DNA of 64,000 nucleotides from positions 1-64,000 of the forward strand of contig JARCRU010000103.1 in NCBI GenBank assembly GCA_029850535.1, in the 5' to 3' direction. Both the position numbers and the translations under genes were made by a program. The stretch's first letter is position 1, and every line of letters begins with the position of its first letter. The stretch comes from Actinomycetota bacterium. Lineage in GTDB: Bacteria; Actinomycetota; Acidimicrobiia; Acidimicrobiales; RAAP-2. Of the stretch, positions 2,104 to 14,491 are shown piece after piece. The notes under the pieces were generated by a model. The model did not search any database and was not told the origin of the DNA. It saw only the letters and a list, made by a program, of their open reading frames with translations.

Positions 2104-3351
2104 TCACTCCAAGGATGTAATTGTCTGTTGCGGAAACGTTTCAAGGATGCCGCCTCGAACAGCGATAGTAGCGGCAGCGATTAAGAACACACCACTCCCT
2201 ACATCGCAGACGTACGCCACTGACCATGAGCGCGCAGCGATTCCGACGAACAACATTCCAATCGGCGCTGAGCTGACCAAGACTGCAAACATTGAACCCG
2301 TTACGCGAGACAATATTTCAGTCGGAACCGATGCTTGAATAGTTGTGAGCAGGAGAGGCATCAATGGTCCGCTTGCGACACCAATCAAGCCAATGCCCAT
2401 CGCCATAAAGTGCGGGTCGGTCCCGAGCAGAAAATACCCAATCCCAACGAAGCTGACGCAAATGGCCGCAAGTCGCCTTACGCTGATCCGCGTCCCAACG
2501 GCGCCGCCAACAGTCGCGCCCATCACCATACCAACTGCATAGACGCCACCGAGGACCCCTAGCGACTGAACGCTCTGATGCTGATGGCGAATCGCCACGG
2601 GAACGAGAACAGGGAGAAGTGCTCCGTCGAAGCCATTAAGAATCAGCGCGCAGCCACCAATGAGCCGTAATGCCGGCGTCGCAACTGCGACCTTCACGCC
2701 CGCTACTAGATCACTCCAATACGTTCCTCGTTGCCGAAGGTCTCCCCTAGCTTGAACGTCTTCCCTGTCCTCGCTGCCAGCGACAACAGCCACAATTGCA
2801 GCAGCGACCAGAAATGACACAGCATCAATACCAAGGGCATTCGGAGCCCCGAGAACATAAATCAGAATGCCTCCAACCGGTGCGCCCACTAGCAGACCAA
2901 TTTGTTGAAGAATCCAGTAGACCGAATTAGCATGTCGAAAAGTGACTCCTGCAGCAACAGCCTTCGACCGGATCAACCGTTGGCGGGCCCCAACTGCAGG
3001 AGCTTGAGTCCCTTGAGCCAAACACATCGCCACCACTATGAGCGTCAGCGACAACCTGTGCATTACGTAAGCTATCGGGATCAGACTCAAACTACTGGCG
3101 GAGGCAATATTGGCAGCCACGGCAACTTTCGTTGCATTGTGGCGATCGGCCAGCGGACTACTAACGACAAGGACAATTGCTCCAATGGTCGTTTGCAAAG
3201 CCAAGGCCACCCCAAGGTCAAAGGGGCTGTTCGTAACCTTAAGGACTAGCCAAGGAGTGGCAACCAATGCCACCCCATCGCCAACCATGGATAATCCGCT
3301 TGCCGTAAGGAGTCCCCAGAGCCGCACTACGTGTGGGGACCTGATGTTCAT
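2104..3351 (-). CDS. MFS exporter of the ThiF/peptide cluster
   Basis: About 415 residues from the ATG at 3351, which lies 7 bases after the preceding gene's stop (the open frame extends further without need). The protein is almost wholly hydrophobic with about 12 membrane segments. It begins MNIRSPHVVRLWGLLTASGLS and has an ADRHNATKVA loop like the motif-A loop of the MFS_3 (EntS/macrolide efflux) group. As the last gene of a cluster with a ThiF-type enzyme and a tiny peptide gene, it is the likely exporter and self-resistance pump, comparable in position and type to MccC of the microcin C operon. Substrate assignment is inference. Confidence 0.75.
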   Translation of the reverse strand: MNIRSPHVVRLWGLLTASGLSMVGDGVALVATPWLVLKVTNSPFDLGVALALQTTIGAIVLVVSSPLADRHNATKVAVAANIASASSLSLIPIAYVMHRLSLTLIVVAMCLAQGTQAPAVGARQRLIRSKAVAAGVTFRHANSVYWILQQIGLLVGAPVGGILIYVLGAPNALGIDAVSFLVAAAIVAVVAGSEDREDVQARGDLRQRGTYWSDLVAGVKVAVATPALRLIGGCALILNGFDGALLPVLVPVAIRHQHQSVQSLGVLGGVYAVGMVMGATVGGAVGTRISVRRLAAICVSFVGIGYFLLGTDPHFMAMGIGLIGVASGPLMPLLLTTIQASVPTEILSRVTGSMFAVLVSSAPIGMLFVGIAARSWSVAYVCDVGSGVFLIAAATIAVRGGILETFPQQTITSLE

Positions 3352-3358
3352 ACAAAGG

Positions 3359-4276
3359 TCAAGCCCTTGCCAGCATGTGACTGTCAAATATTTCCCAGCA
3401 CCACCATGCTGACGGATCTTGCTCGACAAGTTCTGACAGCCATTCAAAGTATCTACGGGTAGGAACGCCTTCTTGTTCCTGCGAGCCGGGAACATAGAGC
3501 GGAGGGTCTGTGTAAAGGTGTATTTCACCAACCTCTACCGACACCCTTATGGGAACCATCATTGCCCCGCCAAGTCGCGCCAAGTGCTCTGCACCTCCTG
3601 GCATATATATTCGGCGTCCAAACAATTCTCCGATTTCGTCTTTTCGGTTCGGACGTAGAGAGAATTCCGGGAACAATAATGCGCTTTGTCCCGAGCGCAA
3701 CGCATTGAGAACAGCTCGCGCGGCACCTCCCTGTTCAACTGCTACGGCGTTCAGTTGTGAAGCGTAATTAGGCGCCATAGCTCGATGGAGTGCTGTGGCA
3801 ATATCTACAACTCCGCCGTCCATGAGACACGTTAGTGAGTAACCGAGGGCACAAAGTGTGAGGGGCAGGCTCTGGTACGCCTTCCAGTGAGCTGATACGA
3901 AGAGGATTGGGATGTTCTTGTTCTTTAACTCTTCCAAATGGCTCAGACCATGAAGGACAATCGCTTTGTCTCCGCCTTCCGAGCCAAGACTCAGAGCCGC
4001 AAGCATGTAGTACAGATTCCGCCCAATTCGAAACCGCGACCACTTTTCCGCCAACAGTGATTCCTGTCCGGAAAACCTGTCGATGGATGCAAACTGTCGA
4101 ATTGCCAGTTCGGTGAAGTGCGACGTTCTGCCAGTTAGAGACGTCTTCATTTCGTTGTCGAGAGCTTGCTCGCATGCTGCTTGCAACTCATGTAGTGGCT
4201 GACTCCTCAGCAATACATAACTCTCGACATTGCGCACCATCACATCGAGGTCGAAGAGGCTGTCAGTATTAGCCAT
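3359..4276 (-). CDS. Acyltransferase-like protein (LPLAT/HtrB-like fold)
   Basis: A 305-residue protein whose central part follows the lysophospholipid/lauroyl acyltransferase pattern: NIPILFVSAHWKAYQSLP (120-138), then GQSALLFPEFSL (196-207), then a MPGGAEHLARLGGAMMVPIRV segment near the end. The catalytic H-x4-D/E of the family appears as H130-W-K-A-Y-Q, with Gln in the acid position, so activity may be altered or lost. The N-terminal 110 residues match nothing I recognise. Its start overlaps the ThiF stop by 8 bases, so it belongs to the cluster and may acylate the peptide product or a lipid partner. Function uncertain. Confidence 0.5.
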   Translation of the reverse strand: MANTDSLFDLDVMVRNVESYVLLRSQPLHELQAACEQALDNEMKTSLTGRTSHFTELAIRQFASIDRFSGQESLLAEKWSRFRIGRNLYYMLAALSLGSEGGDKAIVLHGLSHLEELKNKNIPILFVSAHWKAYQSLPLTLCALGYSLTCLMDGGVVDIATALHRAMAPNYASQLNAVAVEQGGAARAVLNALRSGQSALLFPEFSLRPNRKDEIGELFGRRIYMPGGAEHLARLGGAMMVPIRVSVEVGEIHLYTDPPLYVPGSQEQEGVPTRRYFEWLSELVEQDPSAWWCWEIFDSHMLARA

Positions 4277-5450
4277 GTTTCCTCTGGTCCTCCATCACTT
4301 GATTTGACTCTTCTGATTCCGAAGACGCTCCGCACATAAGGCAACTCACATTTCTCGGCACTTCCGTCCATGAGAGCGAAAGCGTCTGAAAATCAAGTTC
4401 GCCGGTACGATTTGCCAGCAGTGGCTTACCGCAACCCGATATGACTCTCAGCACGTCCCACACCTGAATGTTTGTGATCGCTGCGGCCAATGGAGCAAGA
4501 GCGCCCGAGTACTTATGGGTTGGAGTCAAGTATGTCAAACTCAGACTGGGCTGACGTCGCTGAAAGTCCGTCTGAAAACAGGTCCAGCATGCCGAGGCGA
4601 ACGGTATTATCGTCGGCCCAATCATCCCGATGTGCCCGTCATATCCGCCTCCGACTTGGTGTGGGATCAACTGCGTCATGCACGCCTCGGCTACCCAAGC
4701 CGCAGTCTTGTTAATGTCGGGTTCGTCAGCGCAATTGATTACAAAATCGCATGCATCGACAAGGTCGTCGAGAGGAGGTTCGACGACTCGATCAATTGCT
4801 TCGACCACTACATCGCCGCCGAATTGCCGCTCGATCTCTAGCCTTGCGGCTAGAGCCTTTGGTCGTCCAATATCACTAACTCCATAGAGCACCTGACGAG
4901 CCAGGTTGCTTGCTTCAACATTGTCGAAGTCTACGAGTCGAAGTCGCCCAACTCCGATTCTGGCTAACGATTGCGCGATCCACGTGCCCGTTCCCCCAAG
5001 GCCAAGTACCGCGACAGTACTGTCTCGAACGCGACGCTGCATTACGTCAGGGTGGTCAACGGACTCACTGAAATCGCGCAAGTAGGACAGTTGACGTCGA
5101 AATCGCTCCCGTTCGTCTTCATTAAGCATACCAACAGGTCGTGTGTTGAAGCGATAGGTAAGCACCCCTTCGTCGTCAAGGAGGTTGAGGGTGCTTTGAA
5201 TGTCATCCGACGTAAGCGTCGGGAAATCAACTTGCATGAGAGCAGTCAGTTCGCGAATAGTATGGGAACCATCTAGGAGAGGGATAAGACTGAAGATCGG
5301 CTCGGTTACTTGAAAGACTAGATGTCGACGCTCAGAGAAGATGATAATTCGGAGGTGCCCTTCAGCATCGCGCGCAGCGCCGATATCATCCCTCAGGCAA
5401 GGTGTCGAGTTTGTCGGCGGAAATGAACACTCCATTGTAGACATCCCCAC
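4269..5450 (-). CDS. ThiF/MccB-type E1 adenylating enzyme with N-terminal peptide-binding-like domain
   Basis: 393 residues. Residues about 33-100 (IIIFSERRHLVFQVTEPIFS to the LLDDEGVLTY segment) look like a RiPP recognition element/peptide clamp, as in MccB or PqqD. Residues 146-260 form the E1 Rossmann domain: GLGGTG at 150-155, VDFDNVEASNLARQ at 173-186, GRPKAL and INCADEPD. Two zinc CxxC pairs occur at 288-291 (CWTC) and 370-373 (CLMC). Such enzymes adenylate a peptide C-terminus using ATP. Start is GTG 5450 or ATG 5444. It lies downstream of the 17-codon peptide gene, with a hairpin between, as mccB follows mccA. The peptide is the likely substrate (inference). Confidence 0.8.
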   Translation of the reverse strand: MGMSTMECSFPPTNSTPCLRDDIGAARDAEGHLRIIIFSERRHLVFQVTEPIFSLIPLLDGSHTIRELTALMQVDFPTLTSDDIQSTLNLLDDEGVLTYRFNTRPVGMLNEDERERFRRQLSYLRDFSESVDHPDVMQRRVRDSTVAVLGLGGTGTWIAQSLARIGVGRLRLVDFDNVEASNLARQVLYGVSDIGRPKALAARLEIERQFGGDVVVEAIDRVVEPPLDDLVDACDFVINCADEPDINKTAAWVAEACMTQLIPHQVGGGYDGHIGMIGPTIIPFASACWTCFQTDFQRRQPSLSLTYLTPTHKYSGALAPLAAAITNIQVWDVLRVISGCGKPLLANRTGELDFQTLSLSWTEVPRNVSCLMCGASSESEESNQVMEDQRKHG

Positions 5451-5533
5451 TTCGTTAAGGTCGTCATTAAACTCGGTTACAAATCGTTATTAGCGGCGGA
5501 CGAAAGAATTGATCTCGCCCCCTAATAAATACA

Positions 5534-5595
5534 CAGAAGGGACTCGAGACCTCATCTCGACTATCGACGAGTTCGAAGGCTGCGAGCCCCTTCTG
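5534..5595 (-). terminator. Terminator-like hairpin between the peptide gene and the ThiF gene
   Basis: On the minus strand CAGAAGGGGCTCG pairs with CGAGTCCCTTCTG (12 of 13 bases plus a G-U pair) around a 36-base region that can itself fold. It is followed by a T-rich stretch TGTGTATTTATT. A leaky terminator here would give much more peptide message than enzyme message, as reported for mccA/mccB. Confidence 0.55.
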
Positions 5596-5625
5596 ACGTA
5601 AAGGCCCTACTTGGCCCATGCCTAA

Positions 5626-5679
5626 CTAGCAGGACCCATTCTTATCCTCGCGGTACTCCTCACGGATCTTCTCAATCAT
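5626..5679 (-). CDS. Candidate 17-residue precursor peptide
   Basis: A 17-codon frame, ATG at 5679 to TAG at 5626, encoding MIEKIREEYREDKNGSC. It is preceded by GGGAGGTGAAGACG, among the best ribosome binding sites in the window, at ideal spacing. It sits alone in a 358-base gap between the PLP enzyme and the ThiF enzyme, with a terminator-like hairpin behind it. The charged helical part (2-13) could bind the enzyme's clamp domain, leaving a KNGSC tail for modification. Unlike MccA it does not end in Asn, so the chemistry would differ. Translation is strongly suggested by the RBS. The role as precursor is inferred from position. Confidence 0.65.
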   Translation of the reverse strand: MIEKIREEYREDKNGSC

Positions 5680-5808
5680 CGTCTTCACCTCCCTTCTTGG
5701 TGTCGATTGACTGGATCGTACCACCCCAACGTTGAACTTTTTCGAGAACCCAATTTCGAAATCATGTCAAAAATTGGAGGGGCGGAAAGGCTAAGTTCTT
5801 GTGAGATC

Positions 5809-7236
5809 TCAGCCACAATTCTCCCCCCATATATTTTGTCGAGAATATTCCAGCACGAGATCTTGCCGCTCTTCTGGTGTAAGAAGGTTTAGTGCTCTCT
5901 CTTGATCCACACTGGACAAATTGGCGCTATGACGGTCGATCGCCGACGGCATCGGGACAGAAGAAAGCACCGCTTGAGCCTGAGTTGGAGTTCGGAAAGT
6001 CATTATGCGGCCACGAGTTTCCGCCAGGGAGGCTGCGAGGAGGGAAGGAAAGTCCTCAGCAACCGTCATGTCAAGCTTGTTGACGTTGATTCGTAGAAGA
6101 GGCCCTGAGTCCTCAAAGCTGAGGTACGTAGCCACGGGCACAGAGAGCGCACGTAGAGCGTGACCGAAGTAAAACGGATCAACCTTCTCCGAAACGAAGA
6201 ACGCTACCGACGCTCCTTCAGGATGTCCCAGCACTTCCGTGACAGGGCAGTCGTTTAGTGCATCTTCGCATGCTTTGCGCTTGGCTAATAATTCACCAGC
6301 TAGGCGAAGATATCCGCTTTCGCCTGTACACTGAAGCGCAATCCACGACGCGCCGACTGGCGCTGCTGGCCGAGTAGACGCTATAGAATTCCCAACGATA
6401 ATGTACCCCGGCCATCGAGTCCATGTGAAGTGGAGTCGTCGCCATGCACCTGGCTCGGATAGCAGCAATAGCGATGCGAGGGGCGGGACTGGACCAAACT
6501 TGTGAAGGTCCACTGACAGCGAAGTAACGCCCGATACAGAGAGATCAAAAGGGGTCGTTCCGGTCTGCCGAGCAGCGAGCCACGGAAGAACCCAACCGCC
6601 TGCGCATGCGTCCACATGAAGGGGAATTCTGTTCTTGGCGGTGAACGCAGCAATGTCTTGGATTGGGTCCACGGTGCCGTGACAAGCGCTGGTTGCTGAC
6701 AAGACAATCAGGGCGGTATCCTCGTCAATTACTGACGTCACGTAATCCGCATCAGGAACTCCTGACTGCAAACCTACCGGCACGGTCTTGACCTTTAGAC
6801 CGAGATAGCGAGCGCCTTTATGAACGGAAGGGTGAATTGTATTTGGTACGACAATGAATGGGATGTGTTGTCTCGTCCTCGGTGTGCGCCCTTCCCATTC
6901 GTCGAGAGCGAGTCTCATCGCCAGAAGGATTGACTCGCTTCCTCCGCTTGTGAATATGCCGCGGGTCAATGGACCTCCACCAAGGTGGTGCGCAGCAGCA
7001 GCAATGATGCTCCGCTCCATAAGTGCGAGACCTGGCGGCACGTCTGGAGGAAGAATTTTCTCCCGTAGGAGAGCCAAGTAGCCAACGTCAACAACGTCGT
7101 CTATGCTCGAGGTACTGGGATTACGGACACAAAGGCCCGGCATCAGGTCTTGGAACTCCGCCAAAACCTCCGCGGCAGGCCGTTCCACCGACGGTAACGC
7201 GAATTCCTTTTCGCGCTGCTGCATTCCCTCGCTCAC
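5809..7236 (-). CDS. PLP-dependent lyase/decarboxylase of the sphingosine-1-phosphate lyase group
   Basis: 475 residues. Family landmarks are GIFTSGGSESILLA (93-106), HVDACAGGWVLPW (207-219, with D209 to hold the PLP nitrogen) and GVTSLSVDLHKFG (236-248), where K246 is the Schiff-base lysine. GNSIASTRPAAPVGASWIAL fits the sphingosine-1-phosphate lyase branch rather than glutamate decarboxylases. The last about 75 residues are an extension outside the fold, ending EYSRQNIWGENCG. It may decarboxylate or cleave an amino-acid-derived substrate for the cluster product, but the substrate is unknown. Start is GTG 7236 or ATG 7224. It is the first gene of the minus-strand cluster, 129 bases before the peptide gene. 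Confidence 0.8.
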   Translation of the reverse strand: MSEGMQQREKEFALPSVERPAAEVLAEFQDLMPGLCVRNPSTSSIDDVVDVGYLALLREKILPPDVPPGLALMERSIIAAAAHHLGGGPLTRGIFTSGGSESILLAMRLALDEWEGRTPRTRQHIPFIVVPNTIHPSVHKGARYLGLKVKTVPVGLQSGVPDADYVTSVIDEDTALIVLSATSACHGTVDPIQDIAAFTAKNRIPLHVDACAGGWVLPWLAARQTGTTPFDLSVSGVTSLSVDLHKFGPVPPLASLLLLSEPGAWRRLHFTWTRWPGYIIVGNSIASTRPAAPVGASWIALQCTGESGYLRLAGELLAKRKACEDALNDCPVTEVLGHPEGASVAFFVSEKVDPFYFGHALRALSVPVATYLSFEDSGPLLRINVNKLDMTVAEDFPSLLAASLAETRGRIMTFRTPTQAQAVLSSVPMPSAIDRHSANLSSVDQERALNLLTPEERQDLVLEYSRQNIWGENCG

Positions 7237-7836: not shown

Positions 7837-9153
7837 GTGAAACAGCATTCGGGAATCAAGTTACCGACAGCGTCGAAGGTGACGTTGGCGGGATTCGATC
7901 CTGAGTGTGAGAAACCCAATGACAGATTCGTTGGCGAGTTTCTCCGTGCTCTTCGTGAAGAGAAGGGACTGGACCAAATTGGACTGGCTGAGATGGTTCG
8001 ATGCTCACCGAGTCTGATATCGAAGTTCGAATCAGGCAGCCAACCGGTTAAAACTACCGGACGAGGCGTGCGCCTACTGGCGGCTCTCGGCACTTCCGTT
8101 CGTGAATTGGAAGACGTCGAGCGTGGCGACGAAAGTGGCAAAGAAACCGTAGACCGTCTTCTTCTGGTCGTAAGCGCTGCTATTACCGCGCCGAAACTCG
8201 TGAACACGCTGAGTCGATCTCGTAGAGAGAAGTTGTCGGAGCATTGCGAAACGGCATTGAGCATGGCCTTCGAGGGTCGGTACGCACTATTTGGTGTGAG
8301 GTTGTCCCGGTTGACGAACGAACTTCAGTGGATACGTGCAAATGCCAAGACCCGTGAGGCAAAAGAGGACGCGCGTGAGACGCTGTCTCAGTTGTATCGG
8401 GCGACGAGTGAAATTCTCACGGCGCTTGATGAGTTTGACATGGCCGAGGTCGCAGCAAATTTAGCAATCAGGGTAGGCGAAGAGCCCGGTGATGCCACTA
8501 CTACCAAGTGCCTACTGGTTCACGCAAATATTGCGAAAGCGCGCACGTATTTGGGTCGGGGCTATCCGGTACGAGCCAATCAGCTTCTGAATGGCGTGCA
8601 GACGCTATACGAGGAATTGGGCAAGGCCGGTCATGGTGACTCGTTGGTAGCTGTCGTCGCGTGGTTGGCGGCTAGCGGTGAGACACACGCCCGTTTGGGT
8701 GATACGAAGCAAGCAAAACACCTTTACCGGTCCGCGATGAATTTTGCACGCAAAGTGACGCCAGTACGTAGTGGCGAATCTCTTCGCCCTGGACCAGTCG
8801 TAACGCCGAGCAATATTGCGCTGATGGCACTTCGAACATTGGGTGAAGCGGGAGACGGCATGAGCGCGCAGGAATTCGCGAATACCGTGGACTTCGAGAT
8901 TTTGAGCCGTGACGAGCAGTTGTCCGTATGGATAGCGATTGCGAAATCGTACTGCCTCTGCAAGGAGCCAACGAAGGCCCTGACCATGCTGCGAAAAGTA
9001 CAGAAGTTAGCTCCGTCTGAACTACGCGTGCGAGGAGATGTCGTCATGGTTCTCACTGAAATACGACACCAGCTCGTTACGTCCGACGTTGAGACATTCG
9101 ATCGCTGGATATGCAGTCTCTTCGCCTCGTCTCACGTCGCCTCATCACTCTGA
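7837..9153 (+). CDS. XRE-type regulator with TPR-like C-terminal region
   Basis: 438 residues. Residues 33-90 form an XRE helix-turn-helix (FLRALREEKGLDQIGLAEMV, then CSPSLISKFESGSQP). The remaining 340 residues are helical with TPR-like pairs (for example ARTYLGRGYPVRANQLLNGV and HARLGDTKQAKHLYRSAM), as in Actinobacterial element regulators that sense a peptide or partner protein. Start is GTG 7837, close behind TAAGGGGGT. The spacing is tight, so a later start is possible. It is divergent from the peptide cluster and upstream of the transfer and replication genes, so it may control either. The target is unknown. Confidence 0.7.
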   Translation: MKQHSGIKLPTASKVTLAGFDPECEKPNDRFVGEFLRALREEKGLDQIGLAEMVRCSPSLISKFESGSQPVKTTGRGVRLLAALGTSVRELEDVERGDESGKETVDRLLLVVSAAITAPKLVNTLSRSRREKLSEHCETALSMAFEGRYALFGVRLSRLTNELQWIRANAKTREAKEDARETLSQLYRATSEILTALDEFDMAEVAANLAIRVGEEPGDATTTKCLLVHANIAKARTYLGRGYPVRANQLLNGVQTLYEELGKAGHGDSLVAVVAWLAASGETHARLGDTKQAKHLYRSAMNFARKVTPVRSGESLRPGPVVTPSNIALMALRTLGEAGDGMSAQEFANTVDFEILSRDEQLSVWIAIAKSYCLCKEPTKALTMLRKVQKLAPSELRVRGDVVMVLTEIRHQLVTSDVETFDRWICSLFASSHVASSL

Positions 9154-9329
9154 GCGTTCACCTGGAACTGTTCGGTCCCTTAAAAACGCCTTCGCGACCA
9201 CGGAAATGTCACCAACTAGTAACGCCATTACGACTTTGCGGCATTTTTGATCGCGATACATCGCCTCTCACGTTTGATGGTTCTGCCGAGCAATTCGGTG
9301 CAGTTCAACCGCCGTGGAAAGGAATTAAG

Positions 9330-9680
9330 TTGCGACACGCTATCAAAACAGAGGACCTGAGCGCTATCGCGCTCGGTCCACCGACCGAGGTCGTCGATTT
9401 CAAGACGAAGACCCCGAAACTCGACAGCGACGGTAAGGGCATCTACAGCCTTCCCGTGGCTGCCATGAGTGGCGGTGAGCAGGAAATAATCACGGTCAGG
9501 TCAACGCAGTTTGCCAAGGGCATTACTGCGGGTGCCGCCGTCAGGTTCATCGAACTGGTGATTTCCAACTGGGAGTTTTCCGGCAAGAGCGGAGTCACGT
9601 TCTACGCAGAATCGGTTCAGCTCGCCGATGCCACCAGCGCCGCTGTCCCCGCCAAGCCGCCGACGTCAGTCACGGCCTAA
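9330..9680 (+). CDS. Small conserved-looking protein of the mobility module, unknown function
   Basis: 116 residues from a TTG at 9330, chosen because GGAAAGGAATTAAG stands directly before it; the open frame reaches back to 9111 without a start signal. The protein is mostly beta-strand in character (GIYSLPVAAMSGGEQEIITV, FIELVISNWEFSGKSGVTFY) and ends in an Ala/Pro/Thr tail. I do not recognise the family. Small proteins of this size lie just upstream of the FtsK-type pump in other AICEs. Single-strand binding or a helper role in transfer would be guesses. Confidence 0.6.
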   Translation: MRHAIKTEDLSAIALGPPTEVVDFKTKTPKLDSDGKGIYSLPVAAMSGGEQEIITVRSTQFAKGITAGAAVRFIELVISNWEFSGKSGVTFYAESVQLADATSAAVPAKPPTSVTA

Positions 9681-9691
9681 CTACAGACACA

Positions 9692-9725
9692 ACGGGTCCC
9701 GGGAGTTCACGCTCTCGGGGCCCGT
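9692..9725 (+). terminator. GC-rich hairpin between the small protein and the FtsK gene
   Basis: ACGGGTCCCGGGAG and CTCTCGGGGCCCGT pair at 12 of 14 positions around TTCACG. There is no T-run. It may be an attenuator or mRNA-stabilising structure. The FtsK gene has its own AAAGGAG ribosome binding site 15 bases downstream. Confidence 0.45.
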
Positions 9726-9740
9726 AATGCAAAGGAGTTC

Positions 9741-11081
9741 ATGATGACGACCCAACCACGAAAGACGCCGTTGGCTCCGGTGGAGAAAACCAACTGGGAA
9801 GTAGGACGGGAACTGATCCGTGACTGGTGGGTGAACGCGGCGCTACTGGGTACGCCGAGTGCGCTGTTGACGTATCTCTACTTCAAGTTCGGACCGGTGG
9901 CGACGAGTGGCGTGGGTGTGCTGCTCATTGGGATCAGCGTAGGAGTGCCGATCGTGCGACGTTGGATTGTTCGCAGTTGGCACGACGCCGGGGTGCGCCG
10001 TACGCTTTACCTGGCGATAGCTGACGAACGCGGCATTCTGCGCGAACGACCACCCAAAATCAAAAAAGTTCGGCGCTACGAGTTCGGCGACGAGGTGGTA
10101 CTGAAACTCGGACGGGGCACGTCGGTCAACGACGTCACGAACGCGCTGGACACCCTCGTTGCCACCCTGAAAGCTCGCGGCGCGCGTGTCTCGGCCAACG
10201 CAGCCAACAAGAACCTCGTAACTCTCAAGATCATTCGTTCCGATCCGTTTGACTCGGACGTCTTGGCGAGTCCACTCCTCGACCGGGATCGCTTTGACAT
10301 TTTCAACCCGATTCCGCTTGGTCTCAGTGAGGAAGGTGTGATGACCACATTGTCGTTGGCCGAACTTAATGCACTCTTAGGTGGAGCGCCAGGTTCCGGC
10401 AAATCCGTGGCGCTGTCGATACTCGTCGCGGCGTGCGCGCTGGACCCGAACGTCGATCTCTGGCTCTTTGACGGCAAGCTCGTCGAGCTCGCTGCGTGGT
10501 CGATCTGCGCGCGTCGCTTCGTGGGCCCCGACCTTGAGCTCGCGATCGCGGTGCTTGAAGAACTTCGCGACAAGATGAACTCGCGCTACCAAGAACTCCT
10601 GGCGAGAGGACTGCGTAATGTGGCCCGTGACGGCACTATGCGACTGCACGTCATTGTCATCGACGAGCTCGCTCTGTACGTCGCGGGCGTCGATAAGAAG
10701 CTCGCCAGTCGCTTCGCCGACCTGTTGCGCGATCTAGTGTCGCGAGGTCGGGCGGCGGGCGTGATCGTCCTTGCCGCGACTCAGAAGCCCTCCGCCGACG
10801 TCATCCCCTCGGCGCTACGCGATCTCTTTGTCATCCGGTGGGCCTTTCGCTGCACTACCCGAGAGGCGAGCGACACCGTGCTCGGTAGCGGTTGGGCGTC
10901 CCAGGGCTTCTCGGCGGCGGACATTGGAGCGGATAACCACGGCGTGGGGCTGCTGCTTCACGAGAGCGGCACGCCAATTCGCCTGAAGACGTCCTACCTC
11001 AACGACGCCGACATCCGAACGATCGCCGAGCGGGGTCGGCGACTTCGCGCCGCATCCGAGCCAGAAGACAATCCGTGGTAG
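9741..11081 (+). CDS. FtsK/SpoIIIE-type DNA translocase (TraSA-like) of an AICE
   Basis: 446 residues. Two membrane segments lie at about 31-50 and 53-72, then a FtsK-type motor: Walker A GGAPGSGKS at 214-222, Walker B VIVIDE at 304-309, and the ATQKPSADVIP motif near 346. In pSAM2 and relatives such proteins move double-stranded DNA between mycelial cells without a type IV secretion system. The length and absence of a gamma domain fit TraSA, not cell-division FtsK. Start is ATG 9741 or 9744 behind AAAGGAG. The stop overlaps the rep start by 7 bases, so the two are translationally coupled. Confidence 0.88.
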   Translation: MMTTQPRKTPLAPVEKTNWEVGRELIRDWWVNAALLGTPSALLTYLYFKFGPVATSGVGVLLIGISVGVPIVRRWIVRSWHDAGVRRTLYLAIADERGILRERPPKIKKVRRYEFGDEVVLKLGRGTSVNDVTNALDTLVATLKARGARVSANAANKNLVTLKIIRSDPFDSDVLASPLLDRDRFDIFNPIPLGLSEEGVMTTLSLAELNALLGGAPGSGKSVALSILVAACALDPNVDLWLFDGKLVELAAWSICARRFVGPDLELAIAVLEELRDKMNSRYQELLARGLRNVARDGTMRLHVIVIDELALYVAGVDKKLASRFADLLRDLVSRGRAAGVIVLAATQKPSADVIPSALRDLFVIRWAFRCTTREASDTVLGSGWASQGFSAADIGADNHGVGLLLHESGTPIRLKTSYLNDADIRTIAERGRRLRAASEPEDNPW

Positions 11082-12595
11082 TCAACCGGAGCGTTAGCGC
11101 GCTGCTCGACGATCGAGTGTTGAGCGGTGTTGCGGCACGTACCCGCACCACGGCCACTCTGGAGCGCTTCAACGAACAGGGTGAACGCTGTGGCTGGTGC
11201 GCCCACCCGATCCGCCTGATCGGCTCGGTGACGTCAGTGGACTCAGCGACCGGAGAGGTCGTGCGTACCTACTCCACGAACGACGAGTCCGACGGCCTAC
11301 TACTGAAGGCCTGTGGTACGAGAAGGGCCACCCGATGCCCCTCGTGCGCCGCCACCTACGCGAGCGACGCCCGAATGCTCGTGCGCTCGGGACTGTCGGG
11401 TGGCAAGGGCGTGCCCGACACGGTGTCGACACACCCGATGGTCTTTGCCACGTTCACCGCCCCGAGCTTTGGCGCCGTGCACGGCACTCGTTCGAAGAAT
11501 GCACCCTGTCGACCCGGTGTCAAGGGTCAGCGCTGCGCCCACGGCAAGAGCCTCAGTTGCTGGCATCGACACCACGACGGCGACGCGCTACTGGGTCAGC
11601 CGCTCTGTGGCGAATGCTACGACTACGAGCGCGCGGTGCTCTGGAACGCGACCTGCCCCGAACTCTGGCGGCGCACCACCATCTACGTGCGCCGAGAGTT
11701 GGCCCGTCAACTCGATCTCAGTGTCACGCAGCTCGATCGCGAAGTCCGACTCTCGTTCGTGAAGGTGGCCGAGTTCCAACGTCGAGGCGTGGTGCACCTG
11801 CACGCGGTCATCCGACTCGACAACCGCGACGACGAGGGCATGGTGCCCGCAATTGGGGTCGATACCGCGATGTTAACTGCGGCTATTCATGCGGCGACCT
11901 CGAAGGTGTCGGCTCCGTTGCCCCTCGGGTTCTCCGACGAGCCGCTCGGTCTCGCGCGCTGGGGTCAACAACTTGACGTGCGCGTCATCGCCAGTAGTGA
12001 ACCAGATGAAACGCACGCAGACGGATCACGCGCTGACACGAGTTCAGGGTCGAATAGTTCGCGCGCAATCGCTAACTACATCGCCAAGTACTCGACCAAG
12101 TCCACCGACGACGCGGGTGCGCTCGATCATCGCTTGACGAGTCTCGATGACCTCGACGACTGTCGGGTGACCGGCCATCTTCGTCGACTGGTTGAGACCG
12201 CGTGGAATCTGGGGGCGCGATCGCACCTCGCGCGCCTGCGGGCCTGGGCGCACTCGCTCGGCTTCGGTGGTCACTGGCTTACCAAGTCAAGGCGCTACTC
12301 GGTCACGTTCTCGTTCCTTCGCCGCCAGCGTCAAGCGTGGCAGGTCAGGCGCACCAACCCCACGACGACAGGGACGACGATCAACCTGGGCCTATGGAAA
12401 TGGGTCGGAACAGGGTGGCTCACGGCGGGCGACGAGTGGCTCGCGGCGTTGGGCCATCGAACCCGAGCGCGTTCTCGCATCGAGGCGCGTGAGACGTTTG
12501 ACCATGAGAAGAGCCAGAACGCCGTGTGGACGTGGGCTGGCGACGACGACAGCTCCCTTGGCGTCAGTCCTGGCGTGGGGGTGCGATGGTCGTGA
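11075..12595 (+). CDS. Rolling-circle replication initiator (RepSA-like, HUH endonuclease)
   Basis: 506 residues from GTG 11075. N-terminal cysteines (CGWC, CPSC, CGECYDYE) form likely zinc sites. The HUH metal motif is VVHLHAVIRL (His 241 and 243), and the nicking tyrosine motif is ANYIAKYSTKS (Tyr 335 and 339), both as in pSAM2 RepSA. It should nick the element's origin to begin rolling-circle replication after excision. The gene lies between the translocase and a short gene preceding the integrase, the order rep - small gene - int seen in pSAM2. Start overlaps the FtsK stop. Confidence 0.85.
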   Translation: MVVNRSVSALLDDRVLSGVAARTRTTATLERFNEQGERCGWCAHPIRLIGSVTSVDSATGEVVRTYSTNDESDGLLLKACGTRRATRCPSCAATYASDARMLVRSGLSGGKGVPDTVSTHPMVFATFTAPSFGAVHGTRSKNAPCRPGVKGQRCAHGKSLSCWHRHHDGDALLGQPLCGECYDYERAVLWNATCPELWRRTTIYVRRELARQLDLSVTQLDREVRLSFVKVAEFQRRGVVHLHAVIRLDNRDDEGMVPAIGVDTAMLTAAIHAATSKVSAPLPLGFSDEPLGLARWGQQLDVRVIASSEPDETHADGSRADTSSGSNSSRAIANYIAKYSTKSTDDAGALDHRLTSLDDLDDCRVTGHLRRLVETAWNLGARSHLARLRAWAHSLGFGGHWLTKSRRYSVTFSFLRRQRQAWQVRRTNPTTTGTTINLGLWKWVGTGWLTAGDEWLAALGHRTRARSRIEARETFDHEKSQNAVWTWAGDDDSSLGVSPGVGVRWS

Positions 12596-12897
12596 CGTCG
12601 CGCAAGAACCCCCGTCCGAAGGTCGCCTACCCCGGCTCCCGTGGCCCCGGACCCCGTGGCCCCGGACCTGGCCGACCCGTGCAACCCCCTCGACCAACGA
12701 CCCCGAAGGAAAATACTTCAGGTTTGCTGGTTATCAACGCACCCGTCTTCGTCGATCTCTCGAACGCCGACGAGACCCGCGCGACAGTCGCGCTGGCAAC
12801 GCTGCTCGGGTCCGTGCTCGTCCGAACGGTGTCGGGGGGCCGACCCAGCGGTGCCGTGATCGAACCCTCCGATGTCACAGCGTCGACGCATGGTTGA
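12586..12897 (+). CDS. Small Gly/Pro-rich-headed protein between rep and integrase
   Basis: 103 residues starting at ATG 12586, overlapping the rep stop by 10 bases. The head is basic and repetitive (GSRGPGPRGPGPGRP), encoded by a tandem repeat of CCCCGTGGCCCCGGA. The rest (LLVINAPVFVDLSNADETRA and following) is a compact alpha/beta stretch. I see no helix-turn-helix, so it does not look like the excisionase expected at this position in pSAM2. It could still be a directionality factor of another type. Function unknown. Confidence 0.5.
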   Translation: MVVTSRKNPRPKVAYPGSRGPGPRGPGPGRPVQPPRPTTPKENTSGLLVINAPVFVDLSNADETRATVALATLLGSVLVRTVSGGRPSGAVIEPSDVTASTHG

Positions 12898-12961
12898 CTA
12901 GCAACGTGGACGTTCACTGTGTTTGAAGCAGTGTCCACCGACAGCGATTGAGGAGAGAGCC

Positions 12962-14491
12962 GTGCGCATCGCCACCTACACCCGGATTTCGACCGACGAG
13001 GTCAACCAGCCCTACTCCCTCGGCGCCCAGTCCGAGAAACTGAGCAACTACGTCGCGAGTCAAGAGGACTGGGAACTGGTATCCACCTTCACCGACCAGA
13101 TGTCGGGCGCCAAGTTAGAGCGCCCCGGACTCAACGGTGCGCTACGCGCCGCCAAGGCTGGAAAGTTCGATCTCCTGCTCGTCTATCGCGTCGACCGATT
13201 GTCGCGCAGCGTGCGCGGGCTCGCCGAGATACTGGAGACCCTCGACGGGGTGAACGTCGGCTTTCGCTCGGCGACCGAACCCTTCGACACGACGTCACCG
13301 GCGGGTCGCATGATGGTCCAGATGCTCGGCGTTTTTGCCGAATTTGAACGAGCGACGATTATCGACCGGGTGATCGCGGGCATGGACCGCAAGGCGAGCC
13401 TCGGCGGCTGGTGCGGCGGTGTCGCCCCCTACGGCTACCGCGCGGTGAAGGGCGAGGGCCGCCTCAGCGTGGACGAGTTAGAAGCACCCCTCGTGCCCGT
13501 CCTCTTCGACCTCTACGCCAACCAGCATCTCGGCAGTCACGCCGTCGCCAACTGGCTCAACGCTGCGGGCCTCGTGACCCGCTCGGGCCGTCCCTGGTCG
13601 TTCAAGTCGGTCCTCACGGTGCTGCGCAGTCGGGTCTACCTCGGCCAGGTCCGCTACCGCGACGGGTGGTGCGACGGCAGTCACTCCGCCCTCATTGACG
13701 AAGAACTCTTTGCCGCCGCACAGGTCATCCTCGACGAACGCGGTGAGGACAGCGCCAAGCGCGCGACCAACGCCTCGGACTACCTGCTCACCGGACTCGT
13801 CGTCTGCAACAACTGCGGACAGCACTTCGCGGGCACGCGCGCGACCGGTCGCAACGAGACCTACCGCTACTACACCTGCGGATCACGCCAGCGCTACGGC
13901 ACCAAGACCTGTAGCGCTGACCGGCTACCCGCCGACGTGCTCGATAGCGCCATCATCGAATCGTTGCTCGCCGCCTACGAGGACTCGGACCTCTTTCGCG
14001 CTGCCGTTGGCCAAGCACAACTACAAGCCCGCGACGGTCATTCGCGTCACGACGACGAACTCCTAGCCGTCTCCAATGAACTCGCCAAGGTCGACACCAG
14101 TGTTGACCGCTACCTACGAGCCTTCGAGTCGGGTTCCATGCCCGAGGCACTGTGCGGTGAACGAGTGAAGGAACTCGCCACTCGCGCGACCGTTCTTCGG
14201 GCACGCCGCGAAGAACTGAACGAGGAGATGGAACAGGCCGAGATCACGTGCGCCTCGCCCGAGGAACTCGCGACACTGCGCGACCGCGTGAACGAGGCCA
14301 TCGCCGAAGGCTCACCAGCCGTGGTTAAATCACTCCTACAGGCCCTCATTCACGAAATTCGAGTGGACAGCCGCAACGCCATTCAGCCCGTCTTTCGCGT
14401 GCCTTTGGCTGGCGACGCCATGGCGGGCGATGCGGTTCGCGCACCGTCCCGGTCGGTGGGCGCTGAGGGACTCGAACCCCCGACCTGCTGA
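12962..14491 (+). CDS. Large serine integrase
   Basis: About 509 residues from GTG 12962, behind GAGGAGAGA. The resolvase domain begins VRIATYTRISTDE with Ser10 as nucleophile, followed by RVDRLSRS and GVFAEFERATI. The recombinase domain includes GGVAPYGYRA and the FKSVLTVLRSRVYLGQVRY segment. A zinc ribbon follows (CNNCGQHF, YYTCGSRQRYGTKTC), then a coiled coil at about 375-440. The last residues, GAEGLEPPTC, come from reading into a copy of a tRNA-Val 3' half, so the gene ends inside the attachment site. It should integrate and excise the pSAM2-like element. In pSAM2 itself the integrase is of the tyrosine type. Confidence 0.9.
   Translation: MRIATYTRISTDEVNQPYSLGAQSEKLSNYVASQEDWELVSTFTDQMSGAKLERPGLNGALRAAKAGKFDLLLVYRVDRLSRSVRGLAEILETLDGVNVGFRSATEPFDTTSPAGRMMVQMLGVFAEFERATIIDRVIAGMDRKASLGGWCGGVAPYGYRAVKGEGRLSVDELEAPLVPVLFDLYANQHLGSHAVANWLNAAGLVTRSGRPWSFKSVLTVLRSRVYLGQVRYRDGWCDGSHSALIDEELFAAAQVILDERGEDSAKRATNASDYLLTGLVVCNNCGQHFAGTRATGRNETYRYYTCGSRQRYGTKTCSADRLPADVLDSAIIESLLAAYEDSDLFRAAVGQAQLQARDGHSRHDDELLAVSNELAKVDTSVDRYLRAFESGSMPEALCGERVKELATRATVLRARREELNEEMEQAEITCASPEELATLRDRVNEAIAEGSPAVVKSLLQALIHEIRVDSRNAIQPVFRVPLAGDAMAGDAVRAPSRSVGAEGLEPPTC

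Follow-up and report, generated by a model that had tools for sequence, protein, structure and literature searches.

A small Cys-ended peptide gene beside an E1-type enzyme and an LpxL-type acyltransferase homologue in Actinomycetota and Lactobacillales

E1-type (ThiF-like) enzymes of ribosomally synthesised and post-translationally modified peptides (RiPPs) use ATP to activate a carboxylate, which is then captured by varied nucleophiles. The available portions of two papers (PMC12150305; PMC12250964) describe in this role an Asn amide for MccB of microcin C, a Cys thiol acting on Glu for GrcB, a Trp indole four residues from the end and joined to the C-terminal carboxylate for IndF, and a backbone nitrogen or outside amines for EnfB, which yields a C-terminal imide or amide. 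Fusions of an E1 domain to a RiPP recognition element (RRE) have been found in the tens of thousands, and few of their reactions are known, according to the available part of PMC12150305. Here we describe a cluster at 2104-7236 of a 64,000-nucleotide stretch (the window: positions 1 to 64,000 of contig JARCRU010000103.1, assembly GCA_029850535.1, from an Actinomycetota bacterium of the Acidimicrobiales), in which a 17-codon gene precedes genes for a putative RRE-E1 enzyme, an LpxL-type acyltransferase homologue and a major facilitator superfamily (MFS) transporter. Judged by its conservation, the 17-codon frame is a real, selected gene with a K-x-G-S-C end as its constant part. We propose, with a probability of about 0.6, that the product of the cluster is a RiPP in which the E1 enzyme activates the carboxylate of the C-terminal Cys, probably with ring closure on the Lys at position -5, acylation and export.

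The cluster and the closest described systems

All of the genes named in the original prediction for this DNA were located where it had placed them, in a minus-strand run:

5809-7236, minus strand: pyridoxal 5'-phosphate (PLP) enzyme of the sphingosine-1-phosphate (S1P) lyase / group II decarboxylase type, 475 aa (S1P lyase, E 1e-45)
5626-5679, minus strand: precursor peptide gene, 17 codons, MIEKIREEYREDKNGSC, stop TAG; C-terminal KxGSC kept in 7 distinct peptides from 6 loci
about 5530-5600, minus strand: hairpin in the intergenic region that separates ThiF from the peptide gene (fold z -4.76)
4269-5450, minus strand: candidate RRE-ThiF/E1 adenylating enzyme, 393 aa from GTG 5450, with ATG 5435 also possible (Pfam ThiF, E 6e-42)
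3359-4276, minus strand: LpxL-type (LPLAT fold) acyltransferase homologue, 305 aa (homology to L. plantarum and S. cristatus proteins)
2104-3351, minus strand: MFS transporter, likely start ATG 3351, the frame being open up to 3531 (MFS_1, E 2e-22)

A gap of 129 bases separates the end of the PLP gene from the start of the peptide gene, after which come the hairpin, ThiF, the acyltransferase gene (sharing 8 bases with ThiF) and the MFS gene. The 17-codon gene has the good ribosome binding site that had been claimed for it, GGGAGG at 8-9 bases before the ATG, with AAGGGAGGTGAAGACG directly 5' of the frame, and related loci keep a KxGSC frame.

The locus had been called microcin C-like, a term that suits its logic but not its family membership, as there is no terminal Asn. 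It shares with microcin C a tiny precursor gene, an E1 enzyme (putatively an RRE-E1) that matches MccB best, an MFS exporter in the position of MccC, and, in the window and in Lactiplantibacillus plantarum, a hairpin that follows the peptide gene. It differs in the K-x-G-S-C end where microcin C has Asn, in the absence of MccD, in having an LpxL-type acyltransferase as a constant partner, and, in the window only, in a separate S1P-lyase-like PLP protein. The KxGSC end also supports the expectation that the product is not that of microcin C. The GRC-type RiPPs (GrcA/GrcB) have a Cys-ended precursor, as here, and an RRE-E1 comparable with the putative one of the cluster, whereas the peptides here have 17-24 residues rather than 39, an acyltransferase is present, there is no fixed acidic partner residue, and no radical S-adenosylmethionine enzymes are seen in the KxGSC clusters. 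The enterofaecin (EnfB) and Ind (IndF) RiPPs also have a short precursor, and an RRE-E1 that acts on the C-terminal carboxylate as proposed here, but their precursors have hydrophobic ends (WWIVI, NWYFI), and an acyltransferase is not described in the available portions of the papers on them. Our literature search found no paper with a KxGSC motif or an E1-acyltransferase pair, although a 2024 survey of ThiF proteins in lactic acid bacteria by Wang et al. (eight groups with logos) may already include this group.

Conservation of the precursor peptide and its partner enzymes

Comparison between loci shows a core consisting of the peptide, one E1 subfamily, one LpxL-type acyltransferase subfamily and an MFS transporter. 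A tblastn search of plasmids with the window acyltransferase gave two records, both from L. plantarum, and the same records hold the best ThiF matches (37-38% identical to the window ThiF); the acyltransferases are homologous over their full length (pairwise E 3e-28). An unannotated frame, MEKVSEVKVLAHEEKNGSC, is present upstream of ThiF on each of these plasmids, and one of the two has a second, tandem copy starting MKKV. An initial scan of genome contigs gave no match; with a two-member ThiF profile, the genome contigs yielded a Streptococcus cristatus locus with peptide MKKINEVKVLSENSKTGSC and a disrupted copy of the cluster, without the peptide, in Secundilactobacillus paracollinoides. An acyltransferase profile run over 395 Lactobacillales genomes matched four: S. 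cristatus, a second Streptococcus (G535) with peptide MKKVAEVKSFSEKEKMGSC, a member of the Streptococcaceae (G519) with a decayed cluster and two tandem frames, MNKVHERILTAQEKADSRTKVGSC and MKKINERVLTAQEKSDTTSKSGSC, and a distant sibling (G758) with a 41-residue peptide, MNNNCQVLNPDAKLDFEILDQLKEAGHELLSGPKQSCNNNC, that ends in Cys. In G758 the peptide, a hairpin, an acyl-carrier protein (PP-binding, E 1e-6), ThiF, the LpxL-type acyltransferase and an MFS protein form one run on the chromosome (L086 4917-8534), the acyl-carrier protein gene lying between those for the peptide and ThiF. The Firmicutes loci also have the MFS gene, with products 49-59% identical to each other. Searching plasmids with the G758 acyltransferase gave no match, scans of viral contigs gave 61, 18 and 8 pattern matches with no relatives among them, and nine phage records matched with generic E1s, none with coverage over 80%. 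There is in addition a 22-bit acyltransferase match in G1356, and the plasmid ThiF search gave 282 further records, as well as plasmid matches H54 and H56.

A tiny frame ending K-x-G-S-C lies upstream of ThiF in six of the seven loci found with both enzymes, and all seven have a small frame ending in Cys. Among 19 related or sibling loci, KxGSC frames (12-30 residues) are present in each of the five with an acyltransferase detectable by tblastn and in none of the 14 others. The original prediction had reckoned with the possibility that no homologous cluster conserves a short frame; the opposite was found, tiny frames being present in related clusters. Lys(-5), Gly(-3), Ser(-2) and Cys(-1) do not vary, and over eight gene copies they are encoded by AAA or AAG for Lys, by GGT, GGA or GGG for Gly, by AGT, AGC or TCC for Ser, and always by TGC for Cys; position -4 is unconstrained (N, T, M, V or S). 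The counts of differences are small, with a single synonymous one between the peptide genes of the two L. plantarum plasmids, and two synonymous and one replacement difference between the tandem copies. Because replacements in the leader outnumber synonymous changes between genera (for example 8 vs 5 for L. plantarum and S. cristatus), the strong constraint is on the C-terminus and not on the whole frame. Just this part is kept across two phyla, which supports the expectation that the peptide would be modified at its KNGSC end.

A chance origin of the frame was considered and rejected on the grounds of shuffling, codon-level constraint and recurrence across loci. When six intergenic regions were each shuffled 3000 times, a KxGSC-ending frame arose in one of the 18,000 shuffled stretches and a GSC-ending frame in seven, and the KxGSC frame occurs once in the whole 64-kb window.

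The ThiF protein keeps the GxGGxG loop, the N..RQ, K and D residues and two CxxC pairs, and its E1 ATP-binding motifs are intact. A profile of five ThiF proteins (A10) compared with solved structures in the PDB matches MccB first (E 3e-52) and PaaA next (E 2e-37). The two CxxC pairs that had been described are thus kept, and the MccB-best profile adds to the E1 assignment, whereas for the clamp-like N-terminus there is weak evidence of an RRE-like region: a pooled profile of ten N-termini has its best match in the N-terminus of PaaA (E 4.6e-4), with generic winged-helix chains next (E 0.0065). PADLOC gave generic E1-E2 and cysteine-desulfurase matches only.

The acyltransferase homologue had been taken for an extra enzyme and turns out to accompany the KxGSC peptide more faithfully than any other partner. 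On its own the window protein falls below the cut-off for Pfam Lip_A_acyltrans (E 0.006); all five family members match that model at E<=1, and the family is secured because the best of them, the S. cristatus relative, matches at E 9e-15. A profile of the family matches an LpxM-type lipid A acyltransferase in the PDB (5kn7/5knk, E 9e-8), and the likeness to the late acyltransferases LpxL and LpxM is thus one of fold family by sequence. HX4(D/E) is the catalytic pair of the Lip_A_acyltrans family, and the motif is visible in 5kn7. At the corresponding place the five members have HWKAYQ, HYGSYM, HYGSYM, HYDSYM and HNDLYQ, the window having HX4Q. The proteins described here therefore differ from LpxL and LpxM in their HX4(M/Q), and also in occurring in two Gram-positive groups and in adjoining a RiPP E1.

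Six further L. plantarum plasmids that we inspected (L057, L062 at 8098-9165, L063, L064, L066 and L067) are without the peptide and acyltransferase genes. Five of them retain just the C-terminal part of ThiF and the sixth has a complete ThiF. Five of the six have an MFS gene of full length (1296 bp), and in the remaining one it is interrupted by an IS256 insertion. The borders of these worn-down copies adjoin recombinase, toxin-antitoxin or TIR genes, as if at a cassette site.

Proposed product and competing explanations

As expected from the enzyme families, the N-terminal RRE of the E1 enzyme would bind as a leader the N-terminal stretch of the peptide, which varies, and the E1 domain would adenylate the C-terminal Cys carboxylate with ATP. 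With less assurance, we propose intramolecular capture of the activated carboxylate. The best candidate for the nucleophile is the invariant Lys(-5) with its side chain, and the outcome would be a five-residue ring with Ser and Cys left free. Since the peptides have no acidic residue in common close to the C-terminus, activation most likely falls on the C-terminal carboxylate, with Lys(-5) as the probable attacking group; IndF and EnfB provide a precedent for chemistry at this carboxylate. The acyltransferase homologue would then add an acyl chain from an acyl-carrier protein or coenzyme A to the Cys thiol, the Ser hydroxyl or an amine; its presence together with the acyl-carrier protein of G758 suggests such an addition, and the missing catalytic acid leaves room for another mechanism. 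The MFS protein would export the product and protect the producer, and the retention of a full-length MFS gene in five of the six plasmids without the biosynthesis genes fits a pump with a protective role against the product. In the window's host only, the PLP enzyme might add a local twist, such as amine supply or trimming. The cluster is probably a member of a family, so far little known, whose products are exported peptides that carry modifications and may be fatty. A bolder version, which we hold tentatively and at somewhat less than even odds, is that of a new class of RiPPs that mobile DNA has carried across Actinomycetota and Lactobacillales, in which Cys activation and cyclisation on Lys(-5) are combined with acyl or lipid joining by an LpxL-fold enzyme that lacks the acid and would therefore use a new mechanism, perhaps with the E1-activated peptide as donor.

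Several points weigh against the proposal of an E1-activated, cyclised and acylated peptide. The chemistry of the product is something that we infer from sequence. The N-terminal domain of the window ThiF alone matches no RRE model in Pfam, and the predicted structures, with mean pLDDT (predicted local distance difference test) values of 39.5 and 46.5, are too poor to serve as evidence. The acid of HX4(D/E) is lost in all five members, and the protein may therefore not be an ordinary acyltransferase. The G758 peptide ends in QSCNNNC, with Cys rather than Lys at -5, and a lactam is thus not universal; the same logic would give a thiolactone there. The window MFS protein is 27% identical over 176 aa to those of the Firmicutes clusters, with no clear orthologue among them, and in a ThiF tree of 12 rows the window is joined to the Firmicutes group weakly (77/90).

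Four other explanations have to be weighed. The product could be a cell-cell signal and not an antibiotic, as related E1-RiPPs have been proposed to be quorum-sensing effectors (in the available part of PMC12250964); we consider this unlikely, given that no dedicated receptor gene was recognised in the window cluster, and that the L. plantarum plasmids retain the pump after loss of the biosynthesis genes, which suits self-protection. The LpxL-type protein might instead use the E1-activated peptide, as adenylate or thioester, for its acyl donor and transfer that peptide to an acceptor, either a lipid or an amine. Activation of the C-terminus by the E1 enzyme would supply the acyl group, the window PLP enzyme could make the acceptor, and the loss of the catalytic acid in every member would fit, but the acyl-carrier protein of the sibling cluster in G758 suits an ordinary acyl donor, and we know of no precedent for an LpxL-type fold using an activated peptide in this way; we regard it as improbable.

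We give slightly less credence still to a GrcB-type thiolactone, in which the E1 enzyme activates an internal Glu or Asp side chain that is attacked by the C-terminal Cys thiol. In its favour, GrcB is an RRE-E1 and the peptide GrcA likewise has a C-terminal Cys (available part of PMC12250964), but in the seven peptides the acidic residue nearest to the C-terminus is at -6, -6, -6, -8, -6, -9 and -9. The distance between the Cys and an acidic residue is not constant, and the Glu-Cys link was rejected for that reason. Least likely is a true microcin C-type Trojan horse, in which the E1 enzyme leaves adenosine monophosphate on the C-terminal Cys and the freed warhead blocks a tRNA synthetase in the target, since the shared gene logic, the MccB-best E1 profile and the MFS exporter speak for it but all seven distinct KxGSC peptides end in Cys and none in Asn, the residue on which the N-P bond of microcin C is formed so that there is no simple carry-over (available parts of PMC7136475; PMC12250964), and no MccF-type peptidase was recognised in the window cluster, for which the LpxL-type protein is no substitute.

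The association of a short invariant C-terminal motif with a fixed enzyme pair in two phyla defines the substrate, the reacting residues and a test. If a lipid-type acyltransferase and an E1 enzyme do act on one peptide, this would join chemistries that are not paired in the available portions of the papers cited here, and the L. plantarum hosts are harmless and can be cultured, so the product can be sought directly.

Genomic setting and other ThiF-linked small genes

The PLP enzyme was rejected as a part of the core. The gene has no match at E<=1e-3 in any of the 19 related or sibling loci, and its family is common in the window's genus (some match in 51 of 61 genomes, at ~33% identity), where close relatives are not beside these ThiF genes as far as seen. 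It is probably a local addition, and the parallel that had been drawn with the decarboxylase domain of MccE is a weak one. The PLP gene has a GC content of 0.55 (0.54 at third codon positions) and ThiF one of 0.53 (0.53), and because of this same low GC the PLP gene probably arrived with the cluster.

The terminator-like hairpin of the original prediction is a real hairpin (-47 kcal/mol for 106 nt, with none of 200 shuffles as good), although a terminator scan did not list it; its probable effect is to limit how much readthrough reaches the enzyme genes. In L. plantarum, too, the peptide gene is followed by a hairpin (z -7.1), but there is no comparable one in the three other loci folded (L060, L084 and L085; z 0.03, -1.0 and -1.4), and it is not a core part of the system as had been supposed.

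The claim that the cluster lies in accessory DNA next to a pSAM2-like element holds. The cluster has a GC content of 0.54 against 0.64 for window positions 24-64 kb, and the element, at 7837-14491, encodes a helix-turn-helix and tetratricopeptide-repeat regulator, an FtsK-like protein (E 1.8e-13), RepSA (E 5.5e-145) and a large serine recombinase. Three WhiB genes of the host exceed the family cut-off, whereas Corynebacterium glutamicum is the only one of 14 control genomes with such a gene, which makes the host very probably an actinobacterium. Searches with the acyltransferase gave the window's own copy as the only strong match both in 395 genomes of the class (41 with weak matches, the best other at 30 bits) and in 396 genomes of the phylum (73 with matches, the best other at 41 bits), and the loci of weak matches that were fetched have no ThiF within flanks of roughly 1.5 kb. 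As far as sampled, the window's genus is otherwise without the cluster, and the idea that it is a genus trait was rejected. The left border is out of view because the contig stops in a transposase-like fragment 2.1 kb to the left of the cluster, and two consecutive gene pairs at 655-1183 and 1344-1902 resemble by eye type II toxin-antitoxin modules.

Other small genes were seen near ThiF genes. Two tiny frames with good ribosome sites, MKLTLKTRKSSFAGASARG (L023 2463-2522) and MTITLRTRKTSIASGANEG (L022 8887-8946, minus strand), are beside ThiF genes and are alike, coming from two genera of the same order. On the contig of the latter there is also a frame of 120 residues that contains successive CxxC repeats (L022 1571-1933, minus strand), beside what appears by eye to be a formylglycine-generating-type enzyme. 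In Acinetobacter johnsonii plasmid pXBB1-8 (L065 4253-6726) the gene for a 66-residue Cys-rich protein is followed by two ThiF genes and an ATP-binding cassette transporter, and the region adjoins a bacteriophage exclusion (BREX) system. A different RiPP cluster is present in a member of the window's genus (G035, L024 6568-10837), where ThiF is followed by a gene that is YcaO-like by eye and an MFS gene. Finally, Nonomuraea gerenzanensis has just 5' of a ThiF gene a 28-residue frame ending in Asn, MDRPPVMVKVEEVPLRVGAVTASNSHGN (L058 8843-8929), which is possibly a true microcin C-type precursor.

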